Assembly: GCA_947491475.1 (NCBI GenBank)
Contig: CANLKN010000023.1
Coordinates: forward strand, 1 to 44,209
DNA: 44,209 bases
Direction: 5' to 3'
Source of the DNA: Akkermansiaceae bacterium
GTDB taxonomy: Bacteria; Verrucomicrobiota; Verrucomicrobiia; Verrucomicrobiales; Akkermansiaceae
Shown here: positions 6,942 through 41,205 of the stretch, one piece after another
Numbering within the stretch: position 1 is the stretch's first letter
Layout: every line of letters begins with the position of its first letter
The notes under the pieces: model-generated
Databases searched by the model: none
Told to the model about the DNA's origin: nothing
What the model saw: only the letters and a program-made list of their open reading frames with translations
Translations under genes and position numbers: made by a program

Positions 6942-6960
6942 GCGTGCGGCCAGATTAACC

Positions 6961-7020
6961 AAAAAAGGAAGATGGGAACCACTGATTTTACTGATTAACC
7001 TGATTTTTAAGAGCTTGGAG
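6961..7020. repeat. Intergenic repeat with 9-nt CTGATT periodicity (copy 1)
   Basis: aaaggaagatgggaaccaCTGATTttaCTGATTaacCTGATTtttaagagcttggag; a related copy is on the opposite strand at about 41077-41123. Confidence 0.7.
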
Positions 7021-29884: not shown

Positions 29885-30000
29885 GAGATTGGAGATTGGA
29901 GATTGGAGATTGGGGATTGGAGATTGGGGATTGGAGATTGGAGATTGGAGATTGGAGATTGGAGATTGGAGATTGGAGATTGGGGATTGGGGATTGGGGA
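29885..30000. repeat. Heptanucleotide tandem array (GAGATTG/GGGATTG), 16 full units plus a partial
   Basis: Read directly: 12 GAGATTG and 4 GGGATTG units from 29885 to 29996, then gggat. Confidence 0.98.
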
Positions 30001-34859: not shown

Positions 34860-35627
34860 TCACGTCCCCTCCATCCGCATCCCCACAGCCCGCTCCGGGA
34901 AACCGATTCCGGGAAGCAGATTCTCCATCAACTCCCTTGCCCCGGCATAACTATCCCTGTCCGCGATGTGCTCCACAGTCCCATCATCCGCCAGCCCATA
35001 AATTCCAAAATACGGCGCGGAGAATTCCTCATCGAACGGATCATCCTCCGCGTTGAAAGAATCCACTCCGTTCTCCACCAACGAATCCCTCACCGTGCGA
35101 ATGCGCAAAAACCGGAATGTTGAAGTGGAAACCGGATGAGCGCGTTCGACAAACACCGGAACCGGCACCCCGCAGTCCGCCCAAACCGGAAGCTGCAAAC
35201 GAAACGCCACCCGCAGGCAATCATCATGATCAAATCCGGCAAAATCACCGGGTTCCATGAACGCCAGACACGCATCGCCGAAGTGATTCTCCAACAGATA
35301 CGGCCATACATCGTCCAATGCTTCAAAAGCGACGTGCTTGCAGGCCCAAGTCTCGAATAAATCCGCGACACGCATCATCTCACGCATGAACTGATCCCCC
35401 CCTTGGTAGGCTTCGCTCAAATTGACGGCAGGATCATTCTTTGCTGCCTTCAGGCAGGCAGTGTGCAGTGACAACGCACAGGCGAAAACGGCGGCGGGAT
35501 CATTTGGCTCATCCATGGCTGCCGCTATCACCTGGCCAGGTACTGGCCGCGAGACAAGGAATAAATCCTGGCCATGCCAAATGGCGTTGCCAATATCCGC
35601 CCATGGCAGCCGGAAACCGATGGACAC
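34860..35627 (-). CDS. Uncharacterised protein (GTG start 35627, or ATG at 35516)
   Basis: Long ORF with coding-like composition and no recognised domain. The ATG at 35516 would avoid overlap with the divergent HNH gene. Confidence 0.5.
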   Translation of the reverse strand: MSIGFRLPWADIGNAIWHGQDLFLVSRPVPGQVIAAAMDEPNDPAAVFACALSLHTACLKAAKNDPAVNLSEAYQGGDQFMREMMRVADLFETWACKHVAFEALDDVWPYLLENHFGDACLAFMEPGDFAGFDHDDCLRVAFRLQLPVWADCGVPVPVFVERAHPVSTSTFRFLRIRTVRDSLVENGVDSFNAEDDPFDEEFSAPYFGIYGLADDGTVEHIADRDSYAGARELMENLLPGIGFPERAVGMRMEGT

Positions 35628-36400
35628 GGGATCAACTCCTCATCGTTCTCAATCTCTATCACAAACTCCGCTTCGGCCAGTTCGACTCGCGGCAACCGGT
35701 CATTATTGACCTCGCCAAACGCATGGAACGCACATCCGGAAGCGTGGCGATGAAACTCAACAATCTCGCGTCTCTTGATCCCGCTCTGAAGCTTCGCGGC
35801 ATCGAAGGGCTCAAGGGTGCCAGCCAACTCGACCGCACGATGTGGCATGAATTCCACGAAAATCCGGCCGAATTGATTCCACTGAGTCAGGAACGCTTCG
35901 ACGCCCTGTTCACCGAATCTGAAAACGAATCCACCGAAGTCATCCCCGGCACCGGCATCCGCAAGGTTCCGCGTGCGCCGTCCGGCGAAACCGAAGTCAC
36001 ACGCCCCACCAAACAACGCCGCGGGCAGGACTACTTCCGCGAAATCGTGCTCAACAACTACGCCAACCGTTGCGCCCTCACCGGTCTGCCCATCCGCGAA
36101 CTCCTCATCGCCTCCCACATCCTCCCGTGGCGCAGCCACGAGGCGGAACGCCTCAACGTCCGCAACGGCATCGCCCTCAACCGCCTCCATGACGCGGCTT
36201 TCGATCAGGGACTCATTTCTTTCGACGACGAGTTGCGGATGATCCTCTCGCCCAAACTCCGTGGCGTCTTGCCACAACAGTCAGTTTCACATTATTTCGA
36301 AAGCTGCGAAGGAAAAGCTCTGGAACTGCCAGTCGACGGCATCCCGCCCGACGCCCTATTTCTATCAAAGCATCGATTACGCTATAAGCTCGTGAACTAA
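35603..36400 (+). CDS. HNH restriction-type endonuclease
   Basis: N-terminal RWTRDQLLIVLNLYHKLRFGQFDSRQPVIIDLAKRMERTSGSVAMKLNNLASLDP; HNH core NRCALTGLPIRELLIASHILPWRSHEAERLNVRNGIALNRLHDAAFDQGLI. Confidence 0.88.
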   Translation: MAAGNRWTRDQLLIVLNLYHKLRFGQFDSRQPVIIDLAKRMERTSGSVAMKLNNLASLDPALKLRGIEGLKGASQLDRTMWHEFHENPAELIPLSQERFDALFTESENESTEVIPGTGIRKVPRAPSGETEVTRPTKQRRGQDYFREIVLNNYANRCALTGLPIRELLIASHILPWRSHEAERLNVRNGIALNRLHDAAFDQGLISFDDELRMILSPKLRGVLPQQSVSHYFESCEGKALELPVDGIPPDALFLSKHRLRYKLVN

Positions 36401-39400
36401 ACCGCTCGCGCCATTTCAAAAAGTTCGGCCGGCATGGAGTGTTCCAGTTCCCAATGCATCTGAATCGGTCGGTCTCCTTGATAGGAAAGAAGATTCTTCG
36501 CCGGACCGAGAAAGATGTAGGGAGCGGTTTCCCCAGCGACCTTTTTTTCGAGTCGCGCAAAGAACAGGATGGTGTAACCGCGTTCGCGGAAATGGATATA
36601 GTTTTGTCCGTCGGTGTGGCTTTGTGCCGTGTTGCTCTGCGATTCCCAGTGCAGCACCGTCGAGCTTACCGGGTAATCCTTGTAGCGGGTATTTGGAGCG
36701 AAATCCCGATCCTCTTTACGGAAAGTGACGAGATGGAGATAGGCTTTCACCGCATGAACCGGTATGACGCCGCTTCCCGCCGGGCCGGTGGAGTCGAGAT
36801 TTGCTTTACCGAAAGCCGAGGTGATCTCGCGCAGTCCGTAGGCGGCGTGAAGGCGCAGATGACATGGAAACGGCAAGGATGAAGCATAGGTCGCGAAAGG
36901 TTGCCGCATCCGTTGCCAGTCAATGATTTCCACGAGATCCTCCGCCGATCGGCGGTTTATGAGCCATTTCTCAAAAGATTCCCGATAGGAACCCACACCA
37001 AGCGCCTCACCATCACCGCTCCACAGAAGGTAGTGAAGTGCAGCAGCCTCTTCAGAGGAAAGACCATAGTGCGCGGGTTCTTCCGCAACGGTCGAGCAGG
37101 CCACCCGCTTTGCCTTTTCGAGAAATTCCGGATCGGTTCGCAAACTGAAGCGCCGCAATGTTCTCCGCGCTTCTTTGATCTCGGAATCTTCTACAGTTTT
37201 GGTGCCGGCGGCGAGGTCTTTCCACTCGGACCATGTCTTGTTCTTCAGTAGTTCGACTGGGGACAAGCCAGTCGCATTAATGAAGTTGCCGAAGGTGAGG
37301 GGGTGCCCGGTTTCAGCCGTGAAAGTCCGGATTGTTTCCGGGACGAACGTTTGAAGATTACCTAGCGATTGACGGATATTCTCTAACACGTGTTCCCTCG
37401 CGACGCGCTCGAACTGGATGCTGCATCCCGGTGGCAGGTTGGGGAAGTCCCGTTCGATTTCCCGGTCGATGCGGCGGCGGGTGTGACGAAGCAGGGCGGT
37501 GAATTTACGGTCGATCCGGTAGCGCCGGTGGACCTGGCCCACGAAGTCCAGCACGGTAAGGCATTCCTTTTCCGGAGCGTGGCGCAAGCCGCGGCCAAGT
37601 TGTTGCAGAAACACGGTGAGGCTCTCTGTCGGACGCAGGAAAAGAACGAGGTTGATTTCGGGCACGTCGATCCCCTCGCTCAAGACGTCCACGACGAAGA
37701 GAAATTGCAAGCGTCCATCCCGGAACTCCCTCATACGATTTTCGCGCAGATCACTTTGGGTTTCGCCTACAATGATTTCAGCCGAGTATCCCATCTCACG
37801 AAATTTGCGGGCCATGAAATCGGCATGGCGCACACCGGCGCAGAAACCCACAGCCCGGGTTCCGGCCAGATCCGGGTGGTAGCGCTGGATGGCGTGATGA
37901 ATGACATCAAGTCGCTGCGAGGCCCTCAGATCGTCACCGGTGTAAATGGCTTCAAGTTCGGCAGAATCGTATTTCCCGTTGCGCCAGAAGCGCTCGTCGG
38001 CGGTGGAAATGGGATCTGTGACACCAAAGTAATGAAACGGGCAAAGCAACTTCTCATCGAGAGCCTCAGGCAAGCGAATCTCGGCGGCGAAGCGGTTGTC
38101 GAAGTCGGGCAGAATTGAACTGCCATCCATTCTTTCGGGAGTGGCGGTGAGGCCGAGAAGTATCCCAGGCCTGAGGTGTTCGAACAGTGGTCGGTAGCTG
38201 TCGGCCGCTCCGTGGTGGGCCTCGTCCACGATGAGAAAGTCAAAGTGCTGCTCTCCAAGTTGTTCCCATGGGCGCTGCCGGTTGAGGCTCTGCACGGAGG
38301 CGAAAACGGCCTCCCACTGGGTCGGCCGTTGACCATCGACCAATAGATCTCCGAAATTGAAATCACGAAGCACGGCGCGGAAGCAGTCGCGTGCTTGATG
38401 GAGGATCTCTTTGCGGTGAACGACGAAGAGCAGGCGGGCCTGCCCCGGATGTATCCGCCGGAAGCGGGCGTAGTCGAAGGCGGCTATCACCGTCTTGCCG
38501 GTTCCGGTCGCCGCGACGACGAGGTTTTTCATCAAGCCGTCAATCCGCATGGCATCGAGGGCCTCGAGCACCCTCTCTTGAAACGGGTGGGGTTTGAGAT
38601 CGGCGAAGAAGCGCGGCCCGTTCTCATCAGGCGGATTTCTGACGCTTTGGATCGCTTCACGGAATCTTGCAGCTTGGCTTGCGTCATATGGAACGAAGCT
38701 TTCGTGGCACCAGTAGGTTTCGAATTCCGCTGCAAAACGCGCGAGCACATGGGGCATGTCCTGAGCCGTGACCTTTACGGTCCACTCCAAGCCACTGGTC
38801 ATCGCGGGCTGGCTCATGTTGGCGGAGCCGATGTAGGCAGTCGAGTAGCCGCTCGCGCGGTGGAAGTGATATGCCTTGGCGTGAAGGCGGGTCCGAGCGG
38901 TGTCGTATGAGATGCGAATGCTAACGTTCCGCCGCTTGACAAGCCACTCGATGGCATGCGGATCGGAGGCACCCATGTAGGAAGTGGTGATGATACGGAC
39001 GGGAATGCCGCGAGCTTCAATCTCCTCGAAGGCAGTCATGAGCAAAGAGAGCCCCGACCATTTTACGAAGGAGACAAGAATGTCGACGCGATCACAGCTC
39101 AGAAGCTCGGTTCGGAGCTCCCGTTCCAGCGGAGGGTCGTCGGCACTTCCTGTAAGCAAACTGCTGATGGAAAGAGGCGTTTCGGGATGCGGCCAGGGAG
39201 TCTGTTGGCCAGCCGGCCGAATTTGCGTGAGGAGTGTCTTGGGTTCGGAAAGCAGTCGCCGCCTTTTTGTGTAGTCGAGTCCATCTTCCGCCGCGACCAG
39301 TTCAATCAACCGGTTGATCAACTCAATCCGGGTGCCTGCCTTTGAGTTAGGCAAAGCCTGATGGAGCAGTTGTCGAATGAACTGACTATAAGTTGATGGT

Positions 39401-39567
39401 TCACTTTCGGAGTCGAGTTTCTCGATCGTGTAGCTGAGGTCAGGCCGGGTGCGCAGTAGCTCTGCGAGTTCCTCATCAAGGAGGCGCTCGTAGAGTCCGG
39501 GTTCAAGATTCTTCTGTTCCAATGAATTGGCGGGTATAATCACGCACTCAACCTCTCCCCCCTCCAC
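36397..39567 (-). CDS. PLD nuclease-like - SF2 helicase - DUF3427 multidomain protein
   Basis: PLD-like LHAKAYHFHRASGYSTAYIGSANMSQPAM; helicase AATGTGKTVIAAFDYA, LIVDEAHH, LLGLTATPERMDG, QLGRGLRH; C-terminal DUF3427-like region. Likely start 39567 (GTG) or an internal GTG. Confidence 0.88.
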   Translation of the reverse strand: MEGGEVECVIIPANSLEQKNLEPGLYERLLDEELAELLRTRPDLSYTIEKLDSESEPSTYSQFIRQLLHQALPNSKAGTRIELINRLIELVAAEDGLDYTKRRRLLSEPKTLLTQIRPAGQQTPWPHPETPLSISSLLTGSADDPPLERELRTELLSCDRVDILVSFVKWSGLSLLMTAFEEIEARGIPVRIITTSYMGASDPHAIEWLVKRRNVSIRISYDTARTRLHAKAYHFHRASGYSTAYIGSANMSQPAMTSGLEWTVKVTAQDMPHVLARFAAEFETYWCHESFVPYDASQAARFREAIQSVRNPPDENGPRFFADLKPHPFQERVLEALDAMRIDGLMKNLVVAATGTGKTVIAAFDYARFRRIHPGQARLLFVVHRKEILHQARDCFRAVLRDFNFGDLLVDGQRPTQWEAVFASVQSLNRQRPWEQLGEQHFDFLIVDEAHHGAADSYRPLFEHLRPGILLGLTATPERMDGSSILPDFDNRFAAEIRLPEALDEKLLCPFHYFGVTDPISTADERFWRNGKYDSAELEAIYTGDDLRASQRLDVIHHAIQRYHPDLAGTRAVGFCAGVRHADFMARKFREMGYSAEIIVGETQSDLRENRMREFRDGRLQFLFVVDVLSEGIDVPEINLVLFLRPTESLTVFLQQLGRGLRHAPEKECLTVLDFVGQVHRRYRIDRKFTALLRHTRRRIDREIERDFPNLPPGCSIQFERVAREHVLENIRQSLGNLQTFVPETIRTFTAETGHPLTFGNFINATGLSPVELLKNKTWSEWKDLAAGTKTVEDSEIKEARRTLRRFSLRTDPEFLEKAKRVACSTVAEEPAHYGLSSEEAAALHYLLWSGDGEALGVGSYRESFEKWLINRRSAEDLVEIIDWQRMRQPFATYASSLPFPCHLRLHAAYGLREITSAFGKANLDSTGPAGSGVIPVHAVKAYLHLVTFRKEDRDFAPNTRYKDYPVSSTVLHWESQSNTAQSHTDGQNYIHFRERGYTILFFARLEKKVAGETAPYIFLGPAKNLLSYQGDRPIQMHWELEHSMPAELFEMARAV

Positions 39568-39618
39568 CTCAACCCCTCCGCATCCGGATGGAAAGCCGGA
39601 TTTTGGGTAGAAGCTGAA
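39564..39618. repeat. 55-bp direct repeat, copy A
   Basis: CCACCTCAACCCCTCCGCATCCGGATGGAAAGCCGGATTTTGGGTAGAAGCTGAA; 53/56 aligned positions identical to copy B at 40535-40590. Confidence 0.95.
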
Positions 39619-39666
39619 ACGCTGAGATGCTGAAAACTGAAATGAAGAGACGGAGGCGGCGGGAAG

Positions 39667-40053
39667 TCAGGATTTGCGGGTGGCGCGGTAGGGCGTGGGC
39701 TCTTCGGCGACTTTGGAGACGGGGCCGGGTGCGTGATTTGCCGGGGCTTTACCGGCTGCGGCGGCGTTCTGAAAGGAGAGTTTCAGCTCCGCGCCGACGG
39801 CGCGGCCGGCGCGGACCAGGGTGGCGATGGTGAGGTTTTCGGCACCGCCGAGCAGGCGGGTGATGCGGGATGGCGGCACGCCCATGCGGTTGGCGAGTTC
39901 GCTGCGGGTGATGCCCTCGCGTTTCATGAACTGGAGCAGCGCTTCCACGGCCTCCAGCTTGCGGAATTCGATTTCGCCCTCAAGCGAGAGCGGCTCGGCA
40001 AAGGCCCGGACAAGAGGATCCGTGGTTTCCGGACGGGTAATGGTGATTTTCAT
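39667..40053 (-). CDS. HigA/XRE-type antitoxin
   Basis: VEALLQFMKREGITRSELANRMGVPPSRITRLLGGAENLTIATLVRAGRAVGAELKLSF. ATG at 40071 also possible. Confidence 0.85.
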   Translation of the reverse strand: MKITITRPETTDPLVRAFAEPLSLEGEIEFRKLEAVEALLQFMKREGITRSELANRMGVPPSRITRLLGGAENLTIATLVRAGRAVGAELKLSFQNAAAAGKAPANHAPGPVSKVAEEPTPYRATRKS

Positions 40054-40061
40054 GGTGGCGT

Positions 40062-40508
40062 TCACTCCCATTTCAAAATGGTCTCCGGGTGATTTTTGAT
40101 TGATAAGTAGTCGTCCTTGCGGGATTTGGCCAAGCGGATGTCTTTCTGCTGCCGCTTGTTTTTGCTTCCACCGTTGGTGCAGAGAATGAGTTGGTTCCGT
40201 CCGTCGATCTCGTCGTAGAAGGCATAGAGTCGGAGTCCCGGGCGTTTGAATTCATGAATGCCGTCCCCGACGTGGCGAAAGGTGATCTGGTTCTCATAAC
40301 GCGGGTGGTTGCTGATGCTGCGGATTCTGGTCAGGATGGATTCGAACTGATTCCGGTCATGTCTGGCCAAATCCATGAGGAATTCCCGGGCCGGATCCTT
40401 GCCATCGATATCAAGTGTCACCACCCTGCGGGCGTCACCAACATGGATCGTGCGGAGAGTGATTTCAACAGGCTTTTTCACTTTTATGATAAACCGCGGG
40501 AGACTCAC
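40062..40508 (-). CDS. HigB/RelE-like (phage-derived Gp49-like) toxin; N-terminus uncertain
   Basis: GKDPAREFLMDLARHDRNQFESILTRIRSISNHPRYENQITFRHVGDGIHEFKRPGLRLYAFYDE. GTG starts at 40508 or 40481. Confidence 0.75.
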   Translation of the reverse strand: MSLPRFIIKVKKPVEITLRTIHVGDARRVVTLDIDGKDPAREFLMDLARHDRNQFESILTRIRSISNHPRYENQITFRHVGDGIHEFKRPGLRLYAFYDEIDGRNQLILCTNGGSKNKRQQKDIRLAKSRKDDYLSIKNHPETILKWE

Positions 40509-40534
40509 GAGGCGGCAAGCAACTGCCCGCACCG

Positions 40535-40590
40535 CCACCTCAGTCCCTCCGCATCCGGATGGAAAGCCGGATTTTTGGGTAGAAGCTGAA
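40535..40590. repeat. 55-bp direct repeat, copy B
   Basis: CCACCTCAGTCCCTCCGCATCCGGATGGAAAGCCGGATTTTTGGGTAGAAGCTGAA. Confidence 0.95.
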
Positions 40591-40690
40591 CGCGGGGTGA
40601 GCGCTGGCGAACCTGGAAGATCATGGCGCAGCCCTGATTGGCATGGCCGGAGGCAAAAGCTGAAATGAAGAAGTGGGCAAATGCTGAAGA

Positions 40691-41076: not shown

Positions 41077-41123
41077 CCAACCTCTTCAAAATCAGTTCAA
41101 TCACTGGCTCCCATCTTCCTTTC
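41077..41123 (-). repeat. CTGATT-family intergenic repeat (copy 2, opposite strand)
   Basis: Minus strand reads aaaggaagatgggagccagtgattgaactgattttgaagaggttgg, similar to 6961-7020. Confidence 0.7.
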
Positions 41124-41205
41124 TACGTTGACGCATGTGCTGCCATCAGGCGGGAGTCAACGCGCTTGGAGGCGGATTATCTTCGGCAGCTGGCGGGCGG
41201 GGTGA

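Follow-up and report, generated by a model that had tools for sequence, protein, structure and literature searches.

Genomic islands and ICEs integrate at the 3′ end of a gene, duplicating that gene end. The locus described here lies in a 44,209-nucleotide stretch of Akkermansiaceae DNA (contig CANLKN010000023.1, positions 1 to 44,209; hereafter the window). It resembles these elements in that direct repeats corresponding to a gene 3′ end flank, in the same orientation, genes that appear to have been acquired. It differs from them in that the inserts, about 1 kb long, lack a recombinase, each copy is a stump, and the tails start at different points from locus to locus. The pdif modules of Acinetobacter carry toxin-antitoxin (TA) content. 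As described in two papers, these dif modules are small, repeat-bounded and shuffled, which is the feature shared with the present loci (PMC6449649, PMC13141974). In contrast to them, the boundary here appears to be the tail of a protein-coding gene and not a Xer site, and the copies are direct and 55–200 bp long; by inspection, the repeat is a G+C-rich coding tail, unlike the 28-bp XerC/XerD sites of dif.

Integron cassettes each hold a single small gene or TA pair beside a recurrent boundary element, a layout also seen here, and integron integrases are present in the family. In contrast to cassettes, the tails do not have attC-like arms of the kind that accompany the integrases of the family (by inspection, the repeat has no AACAAG...GTTG arms), and no integron integrase is adjacent to the TA locus, the integrases lying on other contigs. 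In some defence islands, HNH and helicase genes for restriction occur together (PADLOC mREase_IV); the window's helicase is of this kind and is accompanied by HNH genes, but the upstream HNH gene has decayed and a TA pair stands beside its stump. A recognisable homology joint that recurs and is made from a defence-gene tail would, if true, offer a concrete route by which defence islands acquire and shuffle small modules, and a search handle for module boundaries. A search of open-access literature with few terms turned up no account of HNH tails joining modules, which is weak evidence of absence.

A repeat pair around a toxin-antitoxin module

A preliminary description of this DNA had reported a pair of 55-bp direct repeats bracketing a HigBA-like TA module. 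Both copies lie at the positions it gave, in the same orientation and with the TA genes between them, and 53/56 positions are identical in a gapped alignment. The relevant features of the window are as follows:

35441..36400, plus strand: intact HNH_2 gene, the second of its kind, converging on the helicase gene (4-bp overlap)
36397..39543, minus strand: type IV restriction-like helicase (PLDc/ResIII/Helicase_C/DUF3427), 1048 aa, GTG start
39540..39605, minus strand: HNH frame of repeat copy 1, residues 283–303 of the 303-aa HNH protein at 71% identity, then TGA
39564..39618, minus strand: repeat copy 1, HNH gene 3′-end stump fused to an upstream leader-like tract (TTTCAGCTTCTACCCAAAA)
39667..40071, minus strand: antitoxin with an HTH domain, weakly matching HigA
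40062..40481, minus strand: RelE/ParE toxin (HI1419/HigB-like), 139 aa, GTG start, TIGR02683 match
40505..40624, minus strand: 39-aa open frame with copy 2 in the HNH frame (MIFQVRQRSPRVQLLPKNPAFHPDAEGLRWRCGQLLAAS-stop), tail homology
40535..40590, minus strand: repeat copy 2, second HNH 3′-end stump, upstream of the toxin

The copies differ by two substitutions and one inserted or deleted A; without gaps, they form a 64-nt match of 83%. A search of the 3.89-Mb genome that tolerated three mismatches in a 24-mer of the repeat returned two copies only, and the genome-wide test that had been proposed thus disposes of a random, high-copy intergenic repeat. An 18-mer derived from the repeat was found twice against 0.01 expected in the shuffled window, which excludes a chance origin. 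Beyond the 55 bp, on the helicase and toxin side, the copies remain alike at 12/20 positions because both encode the same protein tail. A structured RNA or hairpin in the repeat was rejected, as its folding is no better than z −1.8 against shuffles.

Between the repeats there are just the TA reading frames and overlapping mechanical ORFs. A transposon was also considered and set aside, there being no transposase between the repeats, which are direct and 55 bp long and not inverted; no tRNA that might have been the target of an insertion was found in the window. By gene content, the pair is a putative type II system of the HigBA/HI1419-like kind. The order of a RelE-like toxin followed by an HTH antitoxin is conserved in several relatives, with family scores below curated cut-offs (24.5 bits for the toxin against TIGR02683). 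The best relative (G019) shows 71% DNA similarity over 40493–39670, ending before both repeats, and no HNH tail was found within about 1.5 kb on each side of related toxins in 16 other family genomes. The TA pair is therefore an independent module that lies between two HNH tails in the window's genome alone. Joint movement of the TA pair and a tail was looked for in other genomes and rejected, as it was not found.

The repeats as HNH-endonuclease gene tails

Searched against 73 genomes of the genus, the repeat gave partial matches, mostly to the 3′ ends of one gene family, which is intact in two genomes (G068 and G070) as a 303-aa protein with an HNH_2 domain (Pfam). Read on the minus strand, each copy corresponds to an HNH-endonuclease 3′ end (…NPAFHPDAEGLRWR…stop), with NPAFHPDAEGLRWRGERLSA-stop in copy 1 and LLPKNPAFHPDAEGLRWRCGQLLAAS-stop in copy 2. 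The identity to the HNH C-terminus is 53–71% over 21–34 residues (E 1e-6 to 8e-5), and in both copies the homology to the 303-aa protein reaches the stop codon at the same place. The two substitutions between the copies are synonymous, while the 1-nt indel breaks the frame of copy 1, whose HNH frame is lost upstream of it. On these comparisons, both repeats are remnants of one HNH-endonuclease gene family's 3′ end. They are probably not a dedicated site of recombination, nor an operator for the antitoxin, a caution that repeats around a TA pair can be gene remnants. A full-length relative scores 94.6 bits against NF045808, short of its 180-bit cut-off, and we therefore call the protein HNH_2 and not a member of the phosphorothioated-DNA restriction endonuclease family of NCBIfam, to which it appears only distantly similar (PT-DNA_restrict-like).

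The palindrome CATCCGGATG, which had been noticed in the core, is present, but it consists of the codons CAT CCG GAT G(CG) and is kept in 1/9 of the related HNH tails compared. It is incidental to the coding sequence, and an operator at this palindrome was rejected on the same grounds.

Copy 1 and the HNH-helicase operon

As previously observed, a gene start follows each copy on the minus strand, that of the helicase in one case and that of the toxin in the other. For copy 1, the contact is an overlap: the GTG start of the helicase and the stop of the HNH stump share GTGA (39543–39540), an arrangement found at this copy only. The helicase matches PADLOC mREase_IV (PDLC03659, 652 bits). A search of 260 family genomes with its N-terminus recovered the operon in relatives, and the closest helicases (G070, G051 and G021; 75–78% identity) have a full HNH gene immediately before them. 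Two of these, G051 and G021, share the letters ATGA between the HNH stop and the start of the helicase gene, in the same place as the window's GTGA, which makes 39543 the probable helicase start. A TA pair separates HNH from the helicase in none of the three. These relatives thus come close to the empty site whose existence had been proposed as a check, except that the HNH gene is complete in them.

The window retains the stop/start overlap but no more than the last ~21 HNH codons. Copy 1 is accordingly a stump in its ancestral place, and it owes its position before the helicase to being what is left of the gene that formerly stood there. HNH tails of 80–90 codons are kept before the helicase in G010 and G042, and in G065 and G004 a 12-codon frame with an HNH-like start overlaps the helicase start; these cases trace a stepwise collapse, and loss of HNH with its end kept beside the helicase appears to have happened repeatedly. 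The end may have been retained for translation of the helicase. The intact HNH_2 gene at 35441–36400 may substitute for the lost one. In G065 and G004 (loci L114 and L115), HNH has seemingly shrunk to a fossil mini-ORF, reading VLFTPAIEQLIA-stop and VLLAAAIEYFIA-stop.

The outer part of the repeat, at its 5′ edge, resembles a word found directly before the ATG of unrelated genes elsewhere in the genus. This leader word was matched 26 times, two of them in the window, compared with 2 matches for a reversed control, and about two thirds of the matches outside G000 have an ATG immediately after them. A similar tract precedes the collapsed HNH gene of G010. The deletion that joined leader and tail likely took place at a CCCAAA micro-homology. 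Across the genus, the word takes the form TTTCAGC(A/T)(T/C)TACCC-N-AAAATG before start codons (loci L013–L038; for example, L013 1501–1520), often follows TTTCAGC/ATTTCAGC repeats and sometimes stands right behind the stop of the previous gene. The genes behind it, named by eye, include GatB and SixA-like, PilB-like and T2SS-F-like genes.

HNH tails at other defence loci

A match to the tail of the HNH gene was found in 37/260 family genomes. Many of these tails are truncated and stand before other defence genes, such as HsdM-like genes, DNA methyltransferases and an ATPase (names partly by eye). Their starts fall at varied HNH residues, about 211–213, 226, 241, 262, 269 and 281. Three further members of the family carry tails paired on the same strand, which makes four tail-pair loci, a small number drawn mostly from MAGs and including one G250 tail that meets a contig end. 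In G034, the pair (85% over 193 bp) surrounds DUF1016 genes. In G250 (93% over 175 bp), a DUF1016/YhcG nuclease lies between the first and second tail, and a MazE-type antitoxin and a PIN-domain toxin (VapBC-like) precede the first. In G165 (94% over 127 bp), a nucleotidyltransferase-like ORF (by eye) and a winged-helix ORF lie between the tails.

Some of these units are shared between genomes. G034 and G250 have a tail-DUF1016 unit in common (92% identity over 790 bp), and G042 and G250 a DUF1016-tract-tail unit (96% over 876 bp). The shared DUF1016 units cross genera while their outer neighbours differ: one flank has KilA-N or VapBC, the other a helicase or XRE-methyltransferase. This is the outcome predicted by exchange through the tails.

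Origin of the tail-flanked arrangement

Given that the repeats are HNH remnants, the best explanation, to which we assign a probability of roughly two in three, is that the TA pair was acquired through homologous exchange between HNH tails. HNH would originally have been the first gene of a restriction-like HNH-helicase operon, as in the relatives. In the lineage of the window, an internal deletion would have collapsed it to the leader-like tract and the last ~21–30 codons, and the overlap of its stop with the helicase start would have preserved copy 1. Homologous recombination between tails would then have introduced the HigBA-like pair together with a second HNH 3′ end, through a single cross-over of a circular or tandem-duplicated segment of TA and tail or an equivalent linear exchange, giving the order tail-TA-tail-helicase. 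The same logic could apply to the tail-DUF1016-tail, VapBC-tail and tail-NTase/wHTH-tail loci of related genera, in which the conserved tail of a common defence gene would be the homology joint for swapping small defence modules. The substitutions between the two copies are synonymous, yet the adjoining 3′ ends differ at 8/20 positions, as expected of hybrids of two HNH alleles. Counting against exchange, this TA pair is found beside an HNH tail only in the window's own genome, and exchange for the HigBA-like pair itself is what we infer.

The cassette reading of the preliminary description holds insofar as modules lie beside or between same-orientation HNH tails in relatives, with shared tail-DUF1016 units, but the boundary is a coding remnant and not a dedicated site. 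The likeliest cassette route is homologous exchange at the 3′ end of a decayed gene. Whether this extends to a rule is doubtful: possibly, Akkermansiaceae-related Verrucomicrobia have, in the 3′ end of a widespread HNH gene of defence, a joint that is general and can be reused, and at which recombination in the tails leads to gain, loss and re-ordering of defence and TA modules in integron-like arrays without an integrase.

It is unlikely that the leader and HNH tail were simply copied in place, by slippage or unequal exchange, and that the TA pair was inserted between them independently, with no exchange through the tails. Such a local duplication would also explain the truncated 5′ junction that the two copies share and that was found nowhere else in the genus, and partial HNH duplications do exist, as in G067, where a 293-bp repeat of 98% lies upstream of an intact HNH gene. 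A copy made in place fits poorly with 3′ ends that diverge so much more than the 55 bp beside them, with their two substitutions and one indel, or with the three other genomes in which tails flank unrelated defence genes.

We regard as very improbable a dedicated site-specific system, be it an integron, pdif/Xer or an unknown recombinase, using the HNH 3′ end as its attachment site in the manner of elements that rebuild gene 3′ ends. Gene 3′ ends in the same orientation around small modules are its typical layout, and integron integrases score above the curated cut-off in G042 and G165, with a relative below it in G000. However, there is no recombinase between the repeats, the three integrase loci checked have no HNH tail nearby, and the tails start at many different HNH residues and not at one site. 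Strict attC core pairs were also missing from the window and the other tails, which is weak evidence, as the filter also misses attC-like repeats near integrase genes. The integrases of G042 and G165 have attC-like direct repeats nearby, and the G000 relative is on contig C34 (loci L216, L217, L220 and L222).

The suggestion of a shared regulatory element, an antitoxin operator or common leader selected at helicase and toxin, is scarcely credible: despite the position of both copies before gene starts, the overlap of the copy 1 frame with the helicase start and the likeness of its 5′ part to the leader word, the core encodes an HNH tail, its palindrome is not conserved, 53 bp separate the end of the 55-mer from the start of the toxin gene, and TA relatives lack the repeat upstream of the toxin, which leaves the suggestion unsupported beyond passive overlap with the helicase start.

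An array-like locus in G250 (L208 3126–6589) reads HNH N-terminus, VapBC-like pair, HNH tail, DUF1016 nuclease, HNH tail and contig end. Short-unit tracts (for example, of the ATTCAAA type in G023) border HNH stumps in other genomes, and the window has a tandem heptamer tract of GAGATTG/GGGATTG at 29885–29998. It also contains a 40-nt inverted repeat pair (6957–6996 and 41090–41129; 83% complementary, 34 kb apart) that looks like a dispersed intergenic element.
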